From IMG/VR virus record IMGVR_UViG_3300033981_001152, positions 1 through 31,946 of that record: DNA of 31,946 nt; one strand, 5' to 3'. The notes beneath the pieces were generated by a model. The model was not told the origin of the DNA and searched no databases. It saw nothing but the letters and a program-made list of their open reading frames with translations. Positions 11,492 to 30,352 of the stretch are shown here, one piece after another. The first letter of the stretch is position 1, and each line of letters starts with the position of its first letter. Source of the stretch: a virus. The translations under genes and the position numbers were made by a program.

Positions 11492-11839
<348 letters not shown>

Positions 11840-17197: not shown

Positions 17198-17956
17198 ATG
17201 GCTGTCACTGTTTTGTCCGGTACGTCCGGCGCCCTTTACTACAAACCCGCCGGCACTAACGGCAACTTCCCGGAAACTGGCGTCAACGCCAGCACTGATG
17301 TCATTACCGTTCAGCCGTACTTGAACTTCAAAGCTGGCGATCCGGTCAAGTTCCGCGTCATCAACAGCCAAACTGGCGAAGCCGGTACCGGCACACTGCC
17401 TGCCCCCATCTCGGCGGCTACCACCTACTACGTGCTGAGCTACACCGCAGCCACTGGCGCGCTGACCGTATCCACCGCTGCTGGCGGTACCATCCTTGCC
17501 ATCACCGACGACGGCACTGCAGCTGCCCCCAACGAGTTCGAGGTGTACTACGCCGACTATGCCGCCGTTGGCCAAGTGCAGTCATGGTCGTTTGAGATCA
17601 GCCGCGCTGAGATCGACGTGACCACCATCGGCCAAGCTGCTGGGCAGTATGCGCCCTTCCGCGCTTACATTCCTGGCTTCGCCGACGGCAACGGCACCGC
17701 AACGATCTACGTCACCAACGAGGACGCTGCGCTGTCCAATCGCATGGTGGAAGACGTGCTGCAACGTCAGCAGGTTGGCTGCGGCTTCAAGCTGTACACC
17801 GACAAGCAAGGCACCGAGGCGCTTAGCCGCAGCATTGCCATGGATGCCGTGCTGCTGACCGCCAGCCTGAACATCAATCCTGATGATGCTCAGCAAGTGG
17901 AGATCACTTTCCGCCCGGCCGGTGCACCTACTTTTGACTTCAGCACTTCTGCTTGA
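17198..17956 (+). CDS. Major tail tube protein
   Basis: The product has 252 residues. The tube core is visible in SWSFEISRAEIDVTTIGQ (about 129-146), followed by GNGTATIYVTN and the C-terminal strand DAQQVEITFRPAG. An inserted domain at about 35-95 (AGDPVKFRVIN, ATTYYVLSYTAATGALTV) probably sticks out of the tube. It lies between hairpins upstream and downstream, fitting a heavily expressed gene. Two later proteins (26002-26445, 26445-27323) share the S.E....IDVTT core and are probably paralogues. Confidence 0.88.
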   Translation: MAVTVLSGTSGALYYKPAGTNGNFPETGVNASTDVITVQPYLNFKAGDPVKFRVINSQTGEAGTGTLPAPISAATTYYVLSYTAATGALTVSTAAGGTILAITDDGTAAAPNEFEVYYADYAAVGQVQSWSFEISRAEIDVTTIGQAAGQYAPFRAYIPGFADGNGTATIYVTNEDAALSNRMVEDVLQRQQVGCGFKLYTDKQGTEALSRSIAMDAVLLTASLNINPDDAQQVEITFRPAGAPTFDFSTSA

Positions 17957-18528: not shown

Positions 18529-20649
18529 GTGTCGGTTGTCGCCAACGTTGCCATTAACGTCGACAGCCGCAATGCGGTTAGCAAACTGCGCGAGGTGCAG
18601 TCACAGGCAGGCGCGACCGAGCGTGCGATTGGCGGCCTTGGCGCGGTTGTCGGTCGTCTGGCCGGTGCATTTGCAGCGTTCCAAGCCGCCAAGTTTGTTT
18701 TTGTCCAAGCAGCAGAAGTTGAAAGCCAACGCCGCAGTTTGGAGGTACTGACTGGTAGCGCTCAACGCGCGGGTCAGATCGTTAAAGAATTGCAAGACCT
18801 TGGCGCAGTCACGCCATTTACCAGCAGTGAGCTGATTGATTCAGCTAAAAGACTGCAAGCGTTTGGAGTTGAAACTAGCAAGGTTGTAGAGACTACCCGC
18901 AGGCTGGCAGATGTCAGCGGCGCAACCGGAGCCGAACTGCAAGGCCTGGTTACGGCCTATGGGCAAGTGCAGGCCAAAGGAAGATTGCAAGGCGAGGAGC
19001 TGTTGCAATTCCAAGAACGTGGTGTTGCACTGCAGCAGGTATTGCGTGAGGAATATGGTTTAAGTGGTGAAGAGTTTCAAAAGGCACTTGAAAAAGGACG
19101 GATTAGCGCCCAAGCCGTTGAAGCTGCGATTATCAAACTGACCGACGCCGGTGGTAAATACGCCAATGGCGCCATCGCTCAGAGCGATACGCTAAACGGC
19201 AAGCTCAGCACACTACAAGATTCATTTCAACGGCTAGCACAAAACATTGGAACCTTCTTTGCACCCGTCTTTAAGTTTTTGATTGATGGCATAAACGCGT
19301 TCATTGAAAGGGTAAATAGTGCTGCACGAATAGGAGCAGAAACAAGAGCGTACGAAGAAGCCAACAGACGAACACGGACTCGCTTTGGTGCGCTTCGCTA
19401 TGCCAATCCTTTTGATCAAGAGGTACAGCAGTATCGGGAACGGCTGCGCAAATCGCTGGTTACGGCAGAAATGGGCGCGGGCGGAGCCGCGGCTGCGCCT
19501 GTAATGACGGGAGGCGGTGGACTGCCGCCCCTGCTTGGTGCCACTGGCGGCAAAGGTCGTGGTGGTAAATCAGACGCAGAAAAAGCGGCCGAGAAAGCAG
19601 CACGCGAAGCAGAAAAGCTACGGCAAGAGCTTGAACGGTCCTTGGAAGTTGGCGATCAACTTGGCACGCAATTTAGTCGTCAAGCAGCGTTGCTATTTGA
19701 GGGATCAGAAATTGAACGCAAGCGCCTGCAAATTCAATTTGATTTTCAAGACCGCGCCAAGCAAATTGCAGAGCTGAAGAATGCTGAGCAGCGCACCAAC
19801 CTGAATCAGCTCAACGCCGAAATCCAGCGACTTGAAATCATTCAACTACAAACAGAAGAACTGAAAAAGCAAGCAGAAGAAGCTGAGAAGCTTTTCAAAG
19901 CCGCCTTTGATGCCACTGAATTTGGTGTCGCGGGAGAAGGTACGGTCGCCTCTGGTTTAACAGATAAAATCACGCAACTTAAAGAAGAACTGAATCCAAT
20001 CAAATTACAGATTGATGCAATCGTGAATGGGGCTACCGCGATTAGCTCTGCTTTTAGCACTGCATTTGGCGAGGTAATTACTGGAGCCAAGTCCACACAA
20101 GAGGCATTAGCTGACGCATTCAAAAAGATTGGGGACGCATTTATAAACATGGCAGTTGAAATAATCACAAAACAAATGACGCTTATTATTTTGCAAAGCA
20201 TTTTGAATGCGTTAGGTGGTGGCGGTAGCGCATTTGGTACGGCTAATAAAAACTTGACCGGCACTGGCGCCCTTAAAACTCCTATTCCAGGGTTGGCCGT
20301 TGGTGGTCGTGCTGGTGGTGGTGCTGTTAGCGGTCAGCAGCCTTATCTAATTGGCGAGCGTGGTCCAGAGCTGTTCGTCCCTGGTACTGGTGGCACTGTC
20401 GTCAATAACAACAATCTGCGCGATGCAATGGGTACTGCTCCCGGCGCCCGCAACGGTCCCATGCTTAACATGACATTCCAGACCACCAACATCGGCGGCG
20501 TGGAATACGTGAGCCGCGACCAGCTTGAAGCTGCCATGGTCGCCACCCGCAAAGCCGCTGCAAACGATGGCGCCAAACGGGGCACCGCAGCTACGTTGAG
20601 TAAGTTACAGAACAGCCCGAGCACAAGGGCAAAACTGGGGCTGCGCTAA
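18529..20649 (+). CDS. Tail tape measure protein
   Basis: The product has 706 residues from a GTG at 18529 (AGGT upstream). The N-terminal part (SRNAVSKLREVQSQAGATER, then a hydrophobic stretch at about 38-64) and residues 65-235 match the tape measure domain (LTGSAQRAGQIVKELQDLGA, TPFTSSELIDSAKRLQAFGV). Residues about 345-470 are a charged coiled coil. A second hydrophobic segment lies near 540-565 (MAVEIITKQMTLIILQSILN). The C-terminus has the familiar IGERGPELFVPGTGG motif. At about 0.15 nm per residue the tail would be roughly 105 nm long. The length fits a siphovirus. Confidence 0.93.
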   Translation: MSVVANVAINVDSRNAVSKLREVQSQAGATERAIGGLGAVVGRLAGAFAAFQAAKFVFVQAAEVESQRRSLEVLTGSAQRAGQIVKELQDLGAVTPFTSSELIDSAKRLQAFGVETSKVVETTRRLADVSGATGAELQGLVTAYGQVQAKGRLQGEELLQFQERGVALQQVLREEYGLSGEEFQKALEKGRISAQAVEAAIIKLTDAGGKYANGAIAQSDTLNGKLSTLQDSFQRLAQNIGTFFAPVFKFLIDGINAFIERVNSAARIGAETRAYEEANRRTRTRFGALRYANPFDQEVQQYRERLRKSLVTAEMGAGGAAAAPVMTGGGGLPPLLGATGGKGRGGKSDAEKAAEKAAREAEKLRQELERSLEVGDQLGTQFSRQAALLFEGSEIERKRLQIQFDFQDRAKQIAELKNAEQRTNLNQLNAEIQRLEIIQLQTEELKKQAEEAEKLFKAAFDATEFGVAGEGTVASGLTDKITQLKEELNPIKLQIDAIVNGATAISSAFSTAFGEVITGAKSTQEALADAFKKIGDAFINMAVEIITKQMTLIILQSILNALGGGGSAFGTANKNLTGTGALKTPIPGLAVGGRAGGGAVSGQQPYLIGERGPELFVPGTGGTVVNNNNLRDAMGTAPGARNGPMLNMTFQTTNIGGVEYVSRDQLEAAMVATRKAAANDGAKRGTAATLSKLQNSPSTRAKLGLR

Positions 20650-21038
20650 TGGCAAGAACATTCCCGTCCTACGTCCCTAGCGCCCGCAGCTTCACGCCCG
20701 GCGAATACCCCGTTCGCACATACCGCAGCCAATCCGGCGTGGTGAGCAAGCGGATCTACGGCAACAAGCCCACCAACTACGAACTCCAGCTGACGTTTAG
20801 CAATGTTGACGACAGCGTAGCCAACGACATTGTTGCCCACTACGAAGACACCGCCAAGCAACTCGAAGGCTTCAATCTCCCAAACGAAGTATTTGGCGGC
20901 ATGGGAAGTGGACTAAAAAACAAAATCCAAGCGCCCAGCAACATCAGCTGGAGCTACGCCAGCCCCCCACAAATCAAATCAGTATTCATTGACGTAAGCA
21001 CCGTCGAGGTCAGCCTGATCGGAGAAATCAATGTCTAA
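20649..21038 (+). CDS. Minor tail protein, distal tail module
   Basis: The product has 129 residues beginning at a TAATG junction with the tape measure. ARTFPSYVPSARSFTPGEYP and SKRIYGNKPTNYELQLTFSN are followed by a helix (DSVANDIVAHYEDTAKQLEG) and a beta end. The position straight after the tape measure equals lambda gpM-like or distal tail proteins that start the tail tip. No exact family recognised. It overlaps the next gene by eight bases. Confidence 0.7.
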   Translation: MARTFPSYVPSARSFTPGEYPVRTYRSQSGVVSKRIYGNKPTNYELQLTFSNVDDSVANDIVAHYEDTAKQLEGFNLPNEVFGGMGSGLKNKIQAPSNISWSYASPPQIKSVFIDVSTVEVSLIGEINV

Positions 21039-21501: not shown

Positions 21502-21878
21502 ACGACCTACTCGGATTGAGACGAGCTTGGGGCGCCTATCCGGGCGATGGATCCGGCACCGTCGACTGCTGCCTGATGGCCCTAGAAGTTCACCGCCGGC
21601 TTGGGTATCACAACTACCTGCCAGAAGTGGCGTGGATCTTCGAGCGCTACACCGACGACACATTGCCCGCCAACTTCATTGCTCGCTGGCTACTCAAAAA
21701 CAGCAAGCGCCTCGCCGGTCCTGAACCACACGCACTGGCACTTCTTCCTAGTCACAGTGTTGGCGCGGTCGGTACAGTGCTAGATGACGGGACGATGCTT
21801 TTTATCGGACCTGGCGGCAGCGTAATTCGCACTGCTGTTGCCGACGATTTTGGCTGGTACTTCAGACTGAACAAATGA
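21498..21878 (+). CDS. NlpC/P60-like tail assembly protein (DUF6950-like)
   Basis: The product has 126 residues from a GTG at 21498 overlapping the previous stop. GDGSGTVDCCLMALEVHRRL at residues 16-35 carries the DC pair seen at the catalytic Cys of the NlpC/P60-type fold. HALALLPSHSVGAVGTVLDD and MLFIGPGGSVIR give the later strands. Lambda gpK is the positional equivalent. A His nucleophile partner is likely at H82 or H89, which I cannot settle. It may cut peptidoglycan during entry or act only in assembly. Confidence 0.75.
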   Translation: MNDLLGLRRAWGAYPGDGSGTVDCCLMALEVHRRLGYHNYLPEVAWIFERYTDDTLPANFIARWLLKNSKRLAGPEPHALALLPSHSVGAVGTVLDDGTMLFIGPGGSVIRTAVADDFGWYFRLNK

Positions 21879-24800
21879 CACGCCGCCTCCTGCCTTACGA
21901 GCACCAACTCGTTGAAACACTGGGCATCAGCGAGGCGGATTACCTTGAGTTCCTGGCGCTGCAGAAGGCGTACAACGACCCCAAGGCGGGCACGGCATTA
22001 GACGTTCGCAACGCAGAGACCGTTGCCATCGTGCTGACGGTTGTCGGCATCCTGTTCCAGGTCGGCGCCGCACTACTCGCACCCAAACCCGATATCCCCG
22101 ACGTTGCCCGAGGTGGTCGCCGCCAACGCGAACAACGCTTTGCCCCCACCTACGGCTTCAACAGCGCACAAGAACTGGCGCGTTACGGCGATCCGGTCAA
22201 CCTTGTTTACTGCAACACCGCCGCCAACGAACGCGGAGCCGTCCGTGCCGCTACCTCGTTGGTGTGGTCCGCCATCCGCAGCAGCGGCAACAACCAGTTC
22301 ATGCAACTGCTGCTTGTTATTGGCGCTGCAAAAGTAAACGAGCTTGCCGTAGCCCGCACTGGCTTTGGCGACATACCACTAGAAAATTTCAACCAAGCAA
22401 ACACTTGGCTCTACTACAGCAAAAACGGAGCGCCAAGCTTTAATGATCGCGTCAGAGGAGATGACAGCGATCCATCCGCAGACGACCGTGATCAAAAAGA
22501 CCAAATTTGCTTAATCCAAGGAAATAGAACAGGCTGCAGCCAAGCGTTTACACCAAGCAATTACAACACATTCGGGATTTACGAACCTATCCCGTTAAAC
22601 GTAATGCTGTATTCACGCGGCCAATCTGGCGGCACCGAATACGACCTAAACGGCATTGAGATTGTTGGTTACAACCCTTACACCACGGTCAGCTGGACGG
22701 CGAACAATCGTTTTGTTACAGGTGATATTGTACGAATTCGTTTCCGCGATGCAAAACCCGATACACGTTTGCGTAACAAGTCCGACGGTAGCGGACCATC
22801 TGAAGAGAAACCAGATGTAGCGACAAACTTTGCCAGCGACATCCGCCGTCAACTTGTTGATCAAATACAACCAGGCTCACTTTACGAATTAGGCAGCGCC
22901 CGCCTAGTGCTGGTGGATCGACAAGATAACAATATCGACAAAGGGGATGTTGACTGTACTTTTCGCGTAATCAATGGAGGATTGGCGCCCGCTGCTCCTT
23001 ACAACAAACTTGTCGCCCGTGCATCACAAAACGGGCAGCAGATCACATATTTGACAGACAGTCAGTATGCGCAAGCAACTGGGTTTAGGGACATACTGGA
23101 AAGTATTGCTTCTGACGTCGAACTTAAGCGTGGTTATGACCCTGTAAATCCCAGCAATACAACAGAAGGCGTGACGATGCGCACGCGGCAAAACATTGAT
23201 CGCATATACGCGAACCTTACCTCTAGCGACAAGGCACAGGCGAATGTTCAGCGCACGGTCCGAAAGGATCCGATCAGCATCAATTTCTTTGGAGTTCGCT
23301 ACTCCTTTGTTAATCCCGCACGCGATGTTAGCTGGATTGATGATACCGGAGTTGCTCGCAAGCTATCGGACGCTACCAGTAAAGAGCAAGGACTGGAACT
23401 AATTGATGAGCGCGGTTCTATCGCTTACACCCGTAAGCAGCGTCGTCAGTTTTTAGCGAACAAGCCAAAAGTTAACTCCAAAGAACTTCGTGAATACCTC
23501 AATGATCAACTTGTGCGCCTGCAAACGCACGTTGGTAATGTCGCATCAGGAAAATTTGACGACACAATTAGAAAGGTAACATCCACCAGCCTTGCGTGGC
23601 CCCTTGAAGATGGCACAACACGCACAGTAGTTTTTTCATTGGCTGCCTCAGGAATACGTAAAGCAAACGGTTATATCTTCGATGGAGACACGCGCCCTCG
23701 CACTCCCAAACAGCAGATTGACGAAATTCGCGCACGCTATAAAACAGTTATCAACGATTTGCAAGCAAAGATTGATAACGCTCCTGGAAAGCAAAGCGCT
23801 AATTTTCGCGCGGATTTGCGTAAGCAGATTGAAGATCTACGGGAAAATCGTCGAGACGCAGTGCGAGACGTTGTGGACGCCTACCGCGACGTACGCATTG
23901 AACAAGCCAGGGATTGCGTAAGCGGCTTTACCGACATAAACAACATTAACCGTATTGCTGGTATTAGAGAGCTGCGTCGTCGCATCAATGCAATTAACGG
24001 CAAAAACACCACTGACCAAGCTGGAGTTGCTGCCATACAGGCGGTATACGACTCAATCATTGACCGCAAGCAAGAAGCATTACTATTTTTGCTTGATATT
24101 ATTGAGGCTTACAACGATCGTGACGGCTCTGACGTTCTGGTAAAAGCGCTGATAAAAGTTCGCGTTGCTTCCTACCAAACTATCAGCCCAATCGACTTCA
24201 TACAGTTCTCAATTAGGGCGCGTCTATTCCGGCGCATCTCAGGCCGCCAACGCAGCTACGGCAGCAAAGCAATCGAACTCAAGGACTACAGCGACTCGGA
24301 CAACGGCATCAAGCCGCGCGTGGCCTTTTTCAAAGTTCTATTCCGCAGAGAAGGCGAAACAGAGTACACAACAGTGCCTTACATGTTTGCCGTCAAAAAC
24401 GCGCAAGACAGAGAAATTTACTTGGGACTGAACTTCCAGTCCGCAAGTTATGCTAAGTACTCATTCCGCTTTGTTCCTGTCGGTGATTTTATTACTGATA
24501 TGCGCGACGAAGGATTTACTCAATTTGCGTTTATCGAACTGCGCGGCACGAGGCGACAAATCAGCGTAGACGGAAACATCTTTTCCTTTACTGGTTCATT
24601 TGTTAACCCGCAACCTAATACCTACGAGCCGGACATTGATGAAGGCCGTCCCATCGGTACGCAGCCTTGGGACTTGATGACCGTCCGCGCTGACACTGAC
24701 ACCCAGTTCAGCTTTGAGCAAGGTCCAGAACTCGCCATCAGCGCCGTCACCGAACAACAAAACACCAACACCAGCCAGTACTACAACGACATGAGCACGC

Positions 24801-25963
24801 TGGGGCTCAGCGTCTATTCCGGTCAAGGCATCCAAGACCTGCGCTCGATTACCGCCTACGTCACCAAAGGCAAGGACTGCTACATCATTAACGGACCATC
24901 TAAATCGTCCGTAACGCTGTCCACCAACAGCAGCTGTTACGCCCCAGATATCTTCCTCGACACGGTGTGGAGCAGCGACGACGGAATCCTTAGCTACTCA
25001 TCCAAAGACGCCATCGACTACGCAACGCTCTTTGACGCCAAGCGCTTCTGCCTCGCAAACAACCTGTTCATGGATGGTGTCATTGCGGACCAGCGCCCTT
25101 GGCGTGAATTCTGGGCAGAGGTAGCTGGATACAGCCTGCTGGAACTGGTACGCAAAAACGGTCAAGAAGCGCTGGCGCCCGCTGTCCCCTTCAAAAACAA
25201 CGGCGTGATCGACCGCGAAATCAAACCCACCGGTTTATTTACCAGCGCCAACATCCTCGAGGGCAGCTTCAAGGAAGAACACTTTGACTACGGATCAGCC
25301 GTCCAGGACCTGATCGCCACTGTTGTTTACCGCGACGTTGAAAACGAGAACGACGTATTCAGCCCCAAAGCGAGCGTCACGGTCAAGCGCAAAGACGGCG
25401 ACGACACCAATGCCATCTACCAAAACTTCGACCTCAGCCAATTCGTATCGACCCGCGAGCAGGCAATCCTCTACGCGAAGTACCTGATCAACCAGCGCCG
25501 CTTCATCCGCCGTGGCATCGAGTTCAAGACTCTGCCGACCGAAGTCCCCGTCGAGCCTGGCAGCTACATCCTCGTCGATGTCGGCCTAACACCTTGGGAC
25601 AACCTCACCACAGGCGTGGTCCTAGCAGGCGGCGAACTCAATAGCCCACTACTCAGCAAAATCCCCGATAGCAACAACTACACCGCACTGGTGTACAAGG
25701 ACCGCAAGGTTCAGACAATTACCAACCTCACCGTCACCAACGGTGTCGCTGCCAGCTTGGCACCGGCTTACGTCGGTTACGCCTTTGTGCTTGGAGCACC
25801 AACCGACCAACGCCGCCGCAGCTTCCGCGTCACCGAGGTAGCGCTCGACGAAGAGGGCGAAATCACCATCAAGGCGGTACGCATTCCCTGCGATATCGGA
25901 CCCAACAACGAACTACTTAGCCGTGTGGCTGACTTTAGTTCCAGTGCGTTTGTTGTCGCATAG
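21875..25963 (+). CDS. Central tail hub / tip attachment protein (lambda gpJ-like)
   Basis: The product has 1362 residues, the largest in the window. It carries an early hydrophobic segment (V50-L68, TVAIVLTVVGILFQVGAALLA region), which in lambda is found in the separate gpI protein. The hub domains follow (FAPTYGFNSAQELARYGDPV and later SRRRFI-like segments near 1210). Residues about 609-685 form a coiled coil (QQIDEIRARYKTVINDLQAK, DLRENRRDAVRDVVDAYRDV). The C-terminal third holds VEPGSYILVDVG-type hub sequence. It would close the tube end and help trigger DNA release. It overlaps the previous gene by four bases. Receptor contact may rest instead on the fibres downstream. Confidence 0.88.
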   Translation: MTRRLLPYEHQLVETLGISEADYLEFLALQKAYNDPKAGTALDVRNAETVAIVLTVVGILFQVGAALLAPKPDIPDVARGGRRQREQRFAPTYGFNSAQELARYGDPVNLVYCNTAANERGAVRAATSLVWSAIRSSGNNQFMQLLLVIGAAKVNELAVARTGFGDIPLENFNQANTWLYYSKNGAPSFNDRVRGDDSDPSADDRDQKDQICLIQGNRTGCSQAFTPSNYNTFGIYEPIPLNVMLYSRGQSGGTEYDLNGIEIVGYNPYTTVSWTANNRFVTGDIVRIRFRDAKPDTRLRNKSDGSGPSEEKPDVATNFASDIRRQLVDQIQPGSLYELGSARLVLVDRQDNNIDKGDVDCTFRVINGGLAPAAPYNKLVARASQNGQQITYLTDSQYAQATGFRDILESIASDVELKRGYDPVNPSNTTEGVTMRTRQNIDRIYANLTSSDKAQANVQRTVRKDPISINFFGVRYSFVNPARDVSWIDDTGVARKLSDATSKEQGLELIDERGSIAYTRKQRRQFLANKPKVNSKELREYLNDQLVRLQTHVGNVASGKFDDTIRKVTSTSLAWPLEDGTTRTVVFSLAASGIRKANGYIFDGDTRPRTPKQQIDEIRARYKTVINDLQAKIDNAPGKQSANFRADLRKQIEDLRENRRDAVRDVVDAYRDVRIEQARDCVSGFTDINNINRIAGIRELRRRINAINGKNTTDQAGVAAIQAVYDSIIDRKQEALLFLLDIIEAYNDRDGSDVLVKALIKVRVASYQTISPIDFIQFSIRARLFRRISGRQRSYGSKAIELKDYSDSDNGIKPRVAFFKVLFRREGETEYTTVPYMFAVKNAQDREIYLGLNFQSASYAKYSFRFVPVGDFITDMRDEGFTQFAFIELRGTRRQISVDGNIFSFTGSFVNPQPNTYEPDIDEGRPIGTQPWDLMTVRADTDTQFSFEQGPELAISAVTEQQNTNTSQYYNDMSTLGLSVYSGQGIQDLRSITAYVTKGKDCYIINGPSKSSVTLSTNSSCYAPDIFLDTVWSSDDGILSYSSKDAIDYATLFDAKRFCLANNLFMDGVIADQRPWREFWAEVAGYSLLELVRKNGQEALAPAVPFKNNGVIDREIKPTGLFTSANILEGSFKEEHFDYGSAVQDLIATVVYRDVENENDVFSPKASVTVKRKDGDDTNAIYQNFDLSQFVSTREQAILYAKYLINQRRFIRRGIEFKTLPTEVPVEPGSYILVDVGLTPWDNLTTGVVLAGGELNSPLLSKIPDSNNYTALVYKDRKVQTITNLTVTNGVAASLAPAYVGYAFVLGAPTDQRRRSFRVTEVALDEEGEITIKAVRIPCDIGPNNELLSRVADFSSSAFVVA

Positions 25964-26001: not shown

Positions 26002-26445
26002 ATGGGCTCTTACTACTCCGGGCGAGCTGGCTCGCTAATCCTGGACGACAAGCCCGTCGCCAAGGTCCGCGACTGGTCCATTGAGATGAGCGTGGACCTG
26101 CTGGACGCCACGACACTTGGTGATTTTGCTCGCACCCAACACCCGAGCACCAAATCCGCTACCGGCAGCTGCACCCTTCTGTACTACCGACTGGATTCCA
26201 GCGAAAACACTGCGTATAAAGAATTCACTTCCCTGCTGAGCAAAATTATGCACACAGGAAGAATTGGGCGCAGCGATATGGTTACTTTGAAGCTACGAGT
26301 CGGCACTGGCGCAGACGACACGATTCAAATTCGAGCGTTCATCACAAACGCCAGTATCGCAGTTAGCAATGGCGAGCTAACAGCTGTACCAATTCAATTC
26401 ACCGTTGAAGGCGACTGGATCGGCATTGTTCAACCGACGTTCTAA
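26002..26445 (+). CDS. Tail tube-like paralogue, short form
   Basis: The product has 147 residues. VRDWSIEMSVDLLDATTLGD near residues 23-42 matches the tail tube core SWSFEISRAEIDVTTIG in position and chemistry, followed by SATGSCTLLYYRLD and a C-terminal strand NGELTAVPIQFTVEG. It lacks the inserted domain of the tube protein. It follows the hub after 38 bases and is coupled to the next gene by a TAATG junction. Possibly a ring at the tail tip or a specialised tube subunit. Confidence 0.75.
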   Translation: MGSYYSGRAGSLILDDKPVAKVRDWSIEMSVDLLDATTLGDFARTQHPSTKSATGSCTLLYYRLDSSENTAYKEFTSLLSKIMHTGRIGRSDMVTLKLRVGTGADDTIQIRAFITNASIAVSNGELTAVPIQFTVEGDWIGIVQPTF

Positions 26446-27323
26446 TGGCTGTCTTTCTCGGCAACACGGGCAACGTCCGCCTTCGCCGTGGAACGGAGGC
26501 TAACTACGGGCGCATTGCCGACAGCATCGACCCCAACGACGTCAACACGATCCTCAACCGCCTGAGTTTCGACAGCGCCCTCGACAACCTACTGACAGGT
26601 GATCGAGTCACAATCAAAACGAATGACGCCCGCAAACTGATCTGCTTTGACCCAACTGCTTGGTCATCTGGAACGCTCCAGTCAAGCATCACCGCTTACG
26701 TAAACGTCAACTCTGCTGGCGGTCTGCGCTTTTTCCGCAACTTTGCCGACGCGGTAAACAACAACCGCTCTCAAGAGCTCACCCTCGATGCCTTCGCAGG
26801 CGATCCGATCACAATTACCGTCTACATCAGCGACTTCCGCTTCAGTGTGCTGGGCAATGTAACCAGCTTCGAGCTGAACACGGATCGCCAGATGATCGAC
26901 ACGACAACCCTAAACGACCGTTTCCAACAGCAATACTCCGCTGGTCTTATCAGCGGGAATGGATCTATCAACTGCCTATTTGACTACAACACATCCGGTC
27001 GGATTGAAACGCCCCTGTTGATGCTCCAGCTAATCCAGCGCACGGAGATCGGCAGCGAATTTGACTGCGCCTTGTACCTAACGGACAACGAGCTGGACTC
27101 TGGCATCCAGAACGTCTATTACGAGTTCACCGCCTGCGTTACCCGAGCCGGTGTTCAGGTCAGCGCAACCGACGCAATCACCTGCTCCATCGACTTTGTA
27201 ACCACAGGCGAGATTCGACTGTTGGTGGGCGAGCCGACGGGTTACACCATCGTGACGGAAGCCGATGAACCCATCGAACTGGAGCAGTCGCTCGACGAAC
27301 TGATTACGCAGGAGCTTGATTAA
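26445..27323 (+). CDS. Tail tube-like paralogue, long form
   Basis: The product has 292 residues. VTSFELNTDRQMIDTTTLND near residues 145-164 repeats the tube core motif, followed by GNGSINCLFDYN and a C-terminal strand AITCSIDFVTTG. The N-terminal 140 residues (VNTILNRLSFD, TGDRVTIKT, SITAYVNVNSAGGLRFF) parallel the inserted domain of the major tube protein. The last 30 residues are acidic (EADEPIELEQSLDELITQEL). It sits between hub and fibre genes, so it may build a tip ring that carries the fibres; this is inference. Confidence 0.72.
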   Translation: MAVFLGNTGNVRLRRGTEANYGRIADSIDPNDVNTILNRLSFDSALDNLLTGDRVTIKTNDARKLICFDPTAWSSGTLQSSITAYVNVNSAGGLRFFRNFADAVNNNRSQELTLDAFAGDPITITVYISDFRFSVLGNVTSFELNTDRQMIDTTTLNDRFQQQYSAGLISGNGSINCLFDYNTSGRIETPLLMLQLIQRTEIGSEFDCALYLTDNELDSGIQNVYYEFTACVTRAGVQVSATDAITCSIDFVTTGEIRLLVGEPTGYTIVTEADEPIELEQSLDELITQELD

Positions 27324-27358: not shown

Positions 27359-30352
27359 TTGGCCGACCAAAGAATTACGCAGCTCAACGAGTTGCCCAAG
27401 GCATCGGTTGCCCAAGACGACGTACTGCCGATTGTCGATATTTCGGCGTCGGAAACCAAGAAGGTCACCGCTCAAAACCTTGTTGACGCCGGACTGGATC
27501 TCATCCCGCTTGGCAGCGTCGATCTTGACAAGCTGGATCAGTCCAGCACTACCAAACTCGGCACCACTGCCCTTGCTGACGACGCCGTAACCGCCGCCAA
27601 GCTCGGTGACAACAGCTCCATCGCGGTCGGCAGCACCGCTCCCAGCACCGATAACTTCAGCGGACGCGGCTTTTTCAATAGCAGCACCGGACTGCTGCAG
27701 ATTTACAGCGCTGGTGCTTACGCCAATGTTGTTGCCAGCGTCGGCGCTGGTGCAGTTGACACGGCTGAGCTTGCCGATGGCGCCGTTACCACCGCCAAGG
27801 TTGACGCTGCCGGGCTTGGTACAGCAGCTATTGCTAACGACGCGATCACCGCAGACAAGATCGCTGACGACGCCGTTACTTCTGCCCAACTGGCAACGGA
27901 TTCCGTCACCGCCGACGCCATAGGCAGCGGGCAGGTTGGTACTGACGAACTAGCCGCCGCAGCCGTTACCTACGCCAAGATCCAAAACGTCAGCGCCACT
28001 GACAAGCTGCTGGGTCGCAGCACTGCTGGCGCCGGCTCCGTCGAAGAAATCACCTGCACCGCAGCAGGTCGCGCACTCCTCGATGATGCCGACGCCGCCG
28101 CCCAACGCTCCACGCTGGGTCTTGGCACACTGTCCACCGCAAACGGCACCTGGACAGACGGCTCCTCGTTCAGCGGTACCAGCTCCGGCACCAACACGGG
28201 CGACCAGACGATCACGCTGACCGGCGACGTAACCGGCTCTGGTACGGGCAGTTTTGCCGCCACCATCGCCAGCAACGCGGTCACGGAAGCCAAGATCAAC
28301 GCCCTCGCCGTTACCACCGGCAAAATTGCCGACGACGCCGTAACAGCAATCAAGCTGGCGGATAACTCTGCCGCCGTCGTTGCTGCTGCAACCCCATCCG
28401 GCTCTGGCGCGTTCATCGGTCAGCAGTGGTACAACACCAACACCAACATCGAGTACACCTGGGACGGCACCGCATGGGTGCGCCAAGCAGGCATCGGCAC
28501 CATCACCTTCAGCGACAGCACGCCGCTGGCGTTTGCGGTTGCCTACCCCGATGCGTTTAGCGCCACCATCACCACCACGATGGACACGCAGGCGGCAAAC
28601 GTCGTCTTGGCTGGTCCCGAGACTGGCGTCGACGCCGCCCCAACATTCCGCGCACTGGTTCCAGCGGACCTACCTGACGCCACCGTCAGCACGAAGGGCA
28701 TCATCGTCCCCGGCTCCGGTCTGACCGTTAGCTCAGGCACCCTCAACCACAGCAACAGCGTCACCGCTGGCACCTACACCAAAGTCACCGTCGACGCCCA
28801 AGGTCACGTATCGACTGGCGCAACTCTCGATGCAGCGGATATCCCCAACCTTGACGCGGCAAAGATCACAACCGGCTCCTTCTCTGCCAGCTTCCTCGCC
28901 AGCGATTCCGTAACGGCACCAAAGCTGGCGGACTACTCCACCGCACAAATCGGTGAGGCCATCCCGGTTGCTGACTACATCGGTCAGCTGTTCTTTAACC
29001 CCCTCGACAAAAACATCTACCTGTGGGACGGCAACGTCTGGCAGCCCGTGGGTGTGTCGCTGGGTGAGCTGATCTTTGCCGGCACCTACGACGCCAACCT
29101 GAACGAAGTGGTGACTACCACCACCGTCGGCGCTGCTGTCGGTCTGGTGGCTGGTGATCCCCTACCTGTCGCCTCCTCGACTTACACCTCGTATTACGTG
29201 GTGGTTGCGGTCGGCGGCACGGGTGTTGCACCTGCACCTGAAGTCGCACTGGCACCGCCGGACATCATCTTGTGCGACGGCTCCAGCTGGAATGAGATCG
29301 ACGTATCCAGCACCTACGTCGCTCAGACCGCCTCGAATGTTGGCTTCACCCCTGCTGGAACGATTGCCAGCACCAACGTCCAAGGTGCCGTCGAGGAAGT
29401 TGCCACTGAAGCCGCCAACGCCAGCAACCTGACAAGCGGCACCGTCGCTGTTGCCCGAGGTGGCACCAATATCAGCAGTTACACCAAAGGCGACCTACTC
29501 GCTGCTTCGGCGTCCACCACACTCGCCAAGCTCGGTGTTGGCACCAACGGTCAGGTGCTCCGCGCCAACAGCGCAACCGCCACCGGACTTGAGTGGGGCG
29601 TCGATTACGTCGGCACCGTCACCAGCGTCACCGGCAGCGCACCAATCTCAGTCGCCACGGGCACGACCACACCTGTCATCAGCGTCAGTGCTGCTAGCAC
29701 CAGCGCAGCGGGCGTGGTGCAACTTAGCGATTCCACCAGCACCACCAGCTCGGTGTTGGCGGCAACGTCCACTGCGGTCAAGTCGGCATACGACCTGGCT
29801 GATGCTGCAATGCCGAAAGCTGGCGGCACCTTCACCGGCGACGTCACACTCGGTGCCACGCGGGCACTGATCTTCGAAGGCAGCACCGACGACGGCTTTG
29901 AAACAACGCTGACGGTTGCTGATCCAACAGCAGATCGAACCATCACGCTGCCCAATGCAACTGGCACGGTTGCACTAACCAGCGACCTCAGTGGCTACGG
30001 CTTGCTTGATGGAGCACAGACTTGGACCAAGGGCCAACGCGGCGAGATTACGGCGCTGACGGATGGCGCAACGATCACACCTGATTTTGCTGATAGCAAT
30101 AACTTCAGCGTCACACTCGGAGGTAATCGCACACTTGCCAACCCGACTAATCTTGTCGCAGGTCAAAGCGGGTGCATTTGGATTACACAAGACGGCACGG
30201 GCGGACGCACCTTGGCCTATGGAAGCTCCTGGGACTTCACGGGCGGCACCGCACCAACTGTGACTAGCACCGCAAACGCCCGTAGCTGCCTGGTGTATGC
30301 CGTGCAGTCAACGACGCAGATTACCGCCACTCTGATCACCAACCTGAGCTGA
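27359..30352 (+). CDS. Long tail fibre protein with triplicated domain
   Basis: The product has 997 residues from a TTG at 27359, supported by a good SD (AGGAG at 27347-27351). The N-terminus (ADQRITQLNELPKA) is a common fibre attachment start. Short repeats (DDAVTAAKL, DAITADKI, DSVTADAI) suggest a triple-stranded shaft. A domain with a repeat, Gly, FFN and WDG..W pattern occurs three times (residues 72-124, 325-376, 516-565). Near 570-650 is another small beta domain, then VARGGTNISSYTKGDLLAAS and LRANSATATGLEWG, frequent in fibres. The end (DFADSNNFSVTLGGNRTLAN to TLITNLS) is a known tip-type domain. It binds the host surface or carries the next protein. Confidence 0.9.
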   Translation: MADQRITQLNELPKASVAQDDVLPIVDISASETKKVTAQNLVDAGLDLIPLGSVDLDKLDQSSTTKLGTTALADDAVTAAKLGDNSSIAVGSTAPSTDNFSGRGFFNSSTGLLQIYSAGAYANVVASVGAGAVDTAELADGAVTTAKVDAAGLGTAAIANDAITADKIADDAVTSAQLATDSVTADAIGSGQVGTDELAAAAVTYAKIQNVSATDKLLGRSTAGAGSVEEITCTAAGRALLDDADAAAQRSTLGLGTLSTANGTWTDGSSFSGTSSGTNTGDQTITLTGDVTGSGTGSFAATIASNAVTEAKINALAVTTGKIADDAVTAIKLADNSAAVVAAATPSGSGAFIGQQWYNTNTNIEYTWDGTAWVRQAGIGTITFSDSTPLAFAVAYPDAFSATITTTMDTQAANVVLAGPETGVDAAPTFRALVPADLPDATVSTKGIIVPGSGLTVSSGTLNHSNSVTAGTYTKVTVDAQGHVSTGATLDAADIPNLDAAKITTGSFSASFLASDSVTAPKLADYSTAQIGEAIPVADYIGQLFFNPLDKNIYLWDGNVWQPVGVSLGELIFAGTYDANLNEVVTTTTVGAAVGLVAGDPLPVASSTYTSYYVVVAVGGTGVAPAPEVALAPPDIILCDGSSWNEIDVSSTYVAQTASNVGFTPAGTIASTNVQGAVEEVATEAANASNLTSGTVAVARGGTNISSYTKGDLLAASASTTLAKLGVGTNGQVLRANSATATGLEWGVDYVGTVTSVTGSAPISVATGTTTPVISVSAASTSAAGVVQLSDSTSTTSSVLAATSTAVKSAYDLADAAMPKAGGTFTGDVTLGATRALIFEGSTDDGFETTLTVADPTADRTITLPNATGTVALTSDLSGYGLLDGAQTWTKGQRGEITALTDGATITPDFADSNNFSVTLGGNRTLANPTNLVAGQSGCIWITQDGTGGRTLAYGSSWDFTGGTAPTVTSTANARSCLVYAVQSTTQITATLITNLS

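Follow-up and report, generated by a model that had tools for sequence, protein, structure and literature searches.

Duplicated tail tube proteins are already known as parts of phage tail tips. The T5 protein p140, a duplicate of the tube protein, makes a single ring at the tip, placed between the tube and the distal tail protein. The p132 collar, which carries the side fibres, surrounds this ring and is contacted by the C terminus of p140 (PMC10038345). In T4, gp54 and gp48 make additional tube-fold rings between the baseplate and the tube (PMC10038345). Distal tail proteins and hub domains have the tube fold too (PMC11945409, PMC10038345). Here, we describe two adjacent genes, designated X1 and X2, which follow the tail-tip hub gene of an uncultivated virus. 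Both encode homologues of major tail (tube) proteins and belong to the tail tube protein superfamily. A tube-protein paralogue as a tip ring has a precedent in T5 p140, and T4 has an extra TTP-like ring; the two paralogues found here represent an independent-looking case. The feature is real and widely conserved, but it is not categorically new.

Gene order and the X1 and X2 genes

The virus record is 31,946 bases long, and this whole stretch is referred to below as the window. It has the gene order of a siphophage: terminase, portal, capsid, terminator, tube, chaperone, tape measure, M, L-like, K-like, hub, X1, X2 and fibre. All of the tail features discussed below lie on the plus strand. The tube-gene position, from the terminator to the chaperone and tape measure, is held not by X1 or X2 but by the gene at 17198–17956 (PHROG 158 and 1407), which encodes the major tail tube protein and has an N-terminal insert of its own; among named tubes, that of Cyanophage KBS-S-2A is nearest, with 81% identity. 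The gene M (20649–21038) encodes a small tail-tip protein which is likely to form the distal-tail (gpM-like) ring. PHROG 15525 (minor tail protein) is matched by 13 of 13 members of the M family, and the likely assignment as a gpM/Dit-type protein is based on position and length. The tail-tip hub or central fibre J-like protein is encoded at 21875–25963; all 15 members of its family match PHROG 27845 (tail protein) and nine of the 15 match PHROG 31 (central tail fiber J; best E value 2.7e-12). The long tail-fibre-like protein at 27359–30352, which has several PHROG tail-fibre matches (best of these 4.3e-13), comes after X2 in the loci that reach that far. Its gene has an apparent TTG start behind an AGGAG ribosome-binding site and its product contains repeats of the ADDAVTxAKLADNS type. 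We also note a small ORF with a high content of glycine and lysine in the head-gene region (11492–11839; GRFAGGGGGGGGGGKSKGKK).

The X1 gene (26002–26445) encodes a protein of 147 amino acids, the whole of which corresponds to the core tube domain. X2 (26445–27323) encodes 292 amino acids, and both reading frames are intact. The X1 stop codon overlaps the X2 start by one base in the sequence TAATG (26443–26447), and an overlap of one or four bases is found at 177 of 218 X1–X2 junctions across loci, which suggests that the two genes are translationally coupled. Within X2, an inserted domain (residues 16–131; 26490–26837) lies between the first strand and the remainder of the tube core (residues 132–264; 26838–27236), and a C-terminal tail follows (residues 265–292; 27237–27320). 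The tail is predicted to be disordered, with pLDDT under 50 for residues 267–292, but it is conserved, having a mean majority-residue frequency of 0.75 compared with 0.69 in the core. It is a possible docking peptide.

Relationship to tail tube proteins

An initial annotation of this DNA had pointed to a short motif common to the tube protein and both genes. When expressed as S.E-x(3-8)-[IL]D.TT, the motif has exactly three matches in all of the window ORFs, namely SFEISRAEIDVTT in the tube, SIEMSVDLLDATT in X1 and SFELNTDRQMIDTTT in X2, compared with 0.017 expected in shuffled window ORFs. Over 300 loci, all but one of its 134 occurrences (133) belong to the tube/X1/X2 protein family. PHROG 1407 (major tail protein) is matched by the tube, by X1 (E value 3.4e-5) and by X2 (7e-4), as well as by 22 of 51 X2 relatives (best 4.9e-6). 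With hhalign, X1 matches the tube at 95% and other major tail proteins at 99%; the corresponding values for X2 are 94% and 97%, and those for all 39 pairs involving a non-tube family are 2.5% or less. The X2 core aligns to both the tube and the MTP profiles, with a core-to-core hhalign value of 93.8%. The direct profile match between X1 and X2 is weak (20%), so that the link between the two rests on their shared match to tube proteins. Iterated profile searches seeded with the tube, X1 or X2 reach the same set of proteins (341 shared of 345). When PDB sequences were searched with the profiles of X1, X2 and the hub, no meaningful match was obtained.

In named phages, both X1 and X2 find matches in the tube genes of S-H1 and MED4-117; X1 has further matches in those of CRP-811 and DSL-LC06. 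The cyanophages S-H1 and MED4-117 resemble the window in having more than one tube-like gene, but in both of them the two copies are situated before the tape measure and not after the hub. In Synechococcus phage S-H1 (L019, MK105819.1) two adjacent tube genes, both annotated as hypothetical, are found at 32532–33373. The two tube genes of MED4-117 (L020, NC_020857.1; 229–1030 and 38091–38832) lie across the record ends, and a chaperone-like gene comes after each of them (97% identical); this reflects either duplication in tandem or an artefact of the assembly.

In a tree of these proteins, X1 and X2 each form one well supported clade (99/98 and 100/100, respectively) separate from the tube proteins and are therefore old paralogues rather than local duplications. 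The branches are long, and a common clade of X1 and X2 is neither shown nor rejected (p = 0.43). Compared with the major tail proteins of PHROG 1407 and 10528 and the tubes of lambda (gpV), R4C and GTA, X1 and X2 share the sequence profile and the fold but differ in lying away from the tube-gene position, in forming clades of their own and in travelling with the tip. The distal tail proteins (lambda gpM, T1 gp37 and Dit) also have a tube-like fold and a tip location (PMC11945409). However, this phage already has an M-like gene, to which neither X1 (0.3%) nor X2 (0.1%) shows a detectable profile relation by hhalign.

Predicted structures

The AlphaFold2 models of X1 and X2 have mean pLDDT values of 78.7 and 71.0, respectively, the latter being of modest quality, and both are predicted to contain the tube β-sandwich fold. 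The X1 model superposes on solved tail-tube proteins with VIA Z scores of up to 11.0 (r.m.s.d. 5.2 Å over 139 residues). Foldseek matches it to the TTP of the marine phage R4C (2.2e-6), to lambda gpV (3.0e-6) and to the GTA tube; the matches listed among the 47 with E values of up to 0.001 are tube, neck, tip or baseplate structures. For X2 the VIA Z scores against solved tail-tube proteins reach 10.6 (r.m.s.d. 3.8 Å over 121 residues), with the best matches spanning 121–126 residues within residues 3–268, and the part that matches the tube consists of residues of about 3–15 and 132–263. The best Foldseek E value for X2 is only 1.2e-3, and its matches in BFVD are mostly uncharacterized phage proteins, together with some named major tail proteins. 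The proposal in the initial annotation that both genes are tail-tube paralogues holds at the level of both profile and predicted fold.

Most of the X2 insert is predicted with confidence (pLDDT 80–95 for residues 21–130), but no fold was assigned to it by the Foldseek search of X2 against BFVD. The same annotation had likened X2 to the tube protein with its N-terminal insert. The parallel stands as far as position is concerned, since each insert follows the first strand and the two occupy the same place in the fold. It does not extend to sequence: the two inserts have no detectable relation (hhalign 0.5%), and homology of the inserted domains is not supported. We note that tubes in this group which lack the N-terminal insert or are longer occur at L077, L130, L144 and L298, and that the tube of L252 has 357 amino acids.

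Distribution and conservation of the layout

The layout tape measure–M–L–K–hub–X1–X2–fibre is fixed in about 140 locus entries (some contigs being counted twice), in which X1 and X2 sit between the hub (or M) and the fibre. In some loci (L016, L052, L054, L070, L097, L100, L102, L118 and others) M has moved from before L to between the hub and X1, giving hub–M–X1–X2–fibre. In a scan anchored on the 80 best-scoring hub relatives, X1 followed by X2 was found downstream of each of the 58 hubs with at least 1.6 kb of downstream sequence; given this sampling, the result applies to this hub family only. With X1, X2 and two divergent members of X2 as queries, tblastn did not find the pair in 50,697 phage records. 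This search returned ordinary tube genes only, and the divergent X2 members returned nothing. Likewise, a scan of 84,980 bacterial and archaeal species genomes with the X2 profile found no X2 relatives. The layout had initially been noted as not recognized from any description. Although T5 p140 provides a precedent for a tube paralogue as a tip ring, in literature searches we recognized no paper that describes two such paralogues placed after the hub.

Association with the tail tip

Near-identical tubes are combined with different tips. Of the contigs with tubes 90–100% identical to that of the window and with enough downstream sequence, 11 have this hub family together with X1 and X2 (in divergent versions in one case) and four have neither. 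Eight near-identical-tube contigs were confirmed to have a KBS-S-2A-like tip and no tube-like gene besides the tube itself. Conversely, X1 and X2 are also found beside quite different tubes which lack the insert and are 25–26% identical. This natural tip swap, in which tubes of at least 90% identity are combined with two different tail-tip modules, can be seen by comparing loci L171, L193, L206, L207, L226, L227, L228 and L234 with L170, L175, L196 and L232.

Co-variation, measured as the correlation of pairwise identities over 31 loci, leads to the same result. It is strong between X1 and X2 (r = 0.84). Outside the pair it is highest with M (0.49 for X1 and 0.48 for X2), followed by the hub (0.33 and 0.42), and it is absent with the tube (−0.09 and 0.04). 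With the fibre, for which the set is small, it is also absent (−0.01 and 0.11). In a first set of 21 loci X2 had appeared to follow the tube (0.68), but this was lost with the 31 more varied loci and is attributed to sampling. Because near-identical tubes occur with or without this tip and its X1 and X2, and because the identities of X1 and X2 follow the tip and not the tube, we conclude that the pair is part of the tail-tip module and is inherited with the tip. The initial placement of these genes at the tail tip is upheld in the sense of a gene module.

Proposed role

The tube fold makes ring formation by X1 and X2 likely, but it cannot by itself locate the ring, since distal tail proteins and hub domains use the same fold. 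We consider it reasonably probable that X1 and X2 are a coupled pair which forms one or more dedicated tube-fold rings at the tip, and that these probably carry the fibre; the ring location and fibre anchoring are inferred. On this view, the two old paralogues of the tube protein are now permanent components of the tip and would make a ring or pair of rings equivalent to the T5 p140 ring. Such a ring could adapt the six-fold symmetry of the tube to the three-fold symmetry of the hub and fibres. The extra domain and the conserved flexible tail of X2 may serve to anchor the fibre, whose gene comes directly next, and are candidates for contact with either the fibre or the hub. The fibre identities, which do not co-vary with those of X1 and X2, speak against a tight contact. 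Like p140, X1 and X2 are paralogues of the tube protein, have a tube-like fold and are encoded among the tip genes, but they differ in being two in number, in being encoded after the hub and in the inserted domain and conserved tail of X2. Between the hub and the fibre, the window ORF list shows no separate candidate for a p132-like Ig collar gene besides X1 and X2. The T4 proteins gp54 and gp48 likewise form extra tube-fold rings, but they are not the same module.

Another arrangement, in which X1 and/or X2 would form a decoration-free ring like that of p140, separating the M ring from the last ring of the tube, and would have no role in holding the fibre, is possible but in our view doubtful. 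X1 is a bare tube domain, as is p140, co-variation outside the pair is highest with M, and the fibre shows no co-variation with X1 or X2. However, this arrangement explains neither the position of the pair directly before the fibre gene nor the insert and conserved flexible tail of X2. These same features, namely the adjoining fibre gene and the extra domain, together with the constant presence of the pair beside this hub family, would suit a wider ring that encircles the tube or the hub and holds several fibres, as the p132 collar does in T5. Nevertheless, we regard such an outer collar as rather unlikely, since p132 has an Ig fold (PMC10038345), while X1 and X2 have the tube fold, the known rings of which are in-line.

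The initial annotation had also allowed for an alternative tube segment. X1 and X2 would then polymerize along the tail, either mixed with the major tube protein or substituting for it. Some named phages do have two tube genes next to each other (S-H1, 48% identical; MED4-117, 78% identical). However, the identities of X1 and X2 do not track those of the tube, near-identical tubes occur without the pair and the pair occurs with very different tubes, and we therefore consider this reading to be very improbable. It is slightly more improbable still that the two proteins are tail-assembly helpers or remnants which are missing from the mature virion, in view of their long conservation (median identities of 0.51 for X1 and 0.50 for X2, compared with 0.28 for the hub), their predicted structural fold and the coupling of their genes. 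The best reading of tube paralogues that belong to a tail-tip module remains the tip ring or fibre collar that had been suggested at the outset. More tentatively, a hetero-ring of X1 and X2 might replace the lambda-type tip components and so constitute a new kind of fibre-bearing tip adaptor in a large group of uncultivated aquatic siphophages.

Two tube paralogues fixed in a single tip module add to the documented p140 duplication in T5 and to the extra ring in T4. Well over a hundred metagenomic virus contigs carry the module, which is absent from the named phages that were searched, and structural studies of environmental phages can look for X1 and X2 as a specific pair of genes. The exchange described here also indicates that siphophages swap complete tip modules while the tube stays nearly the same.
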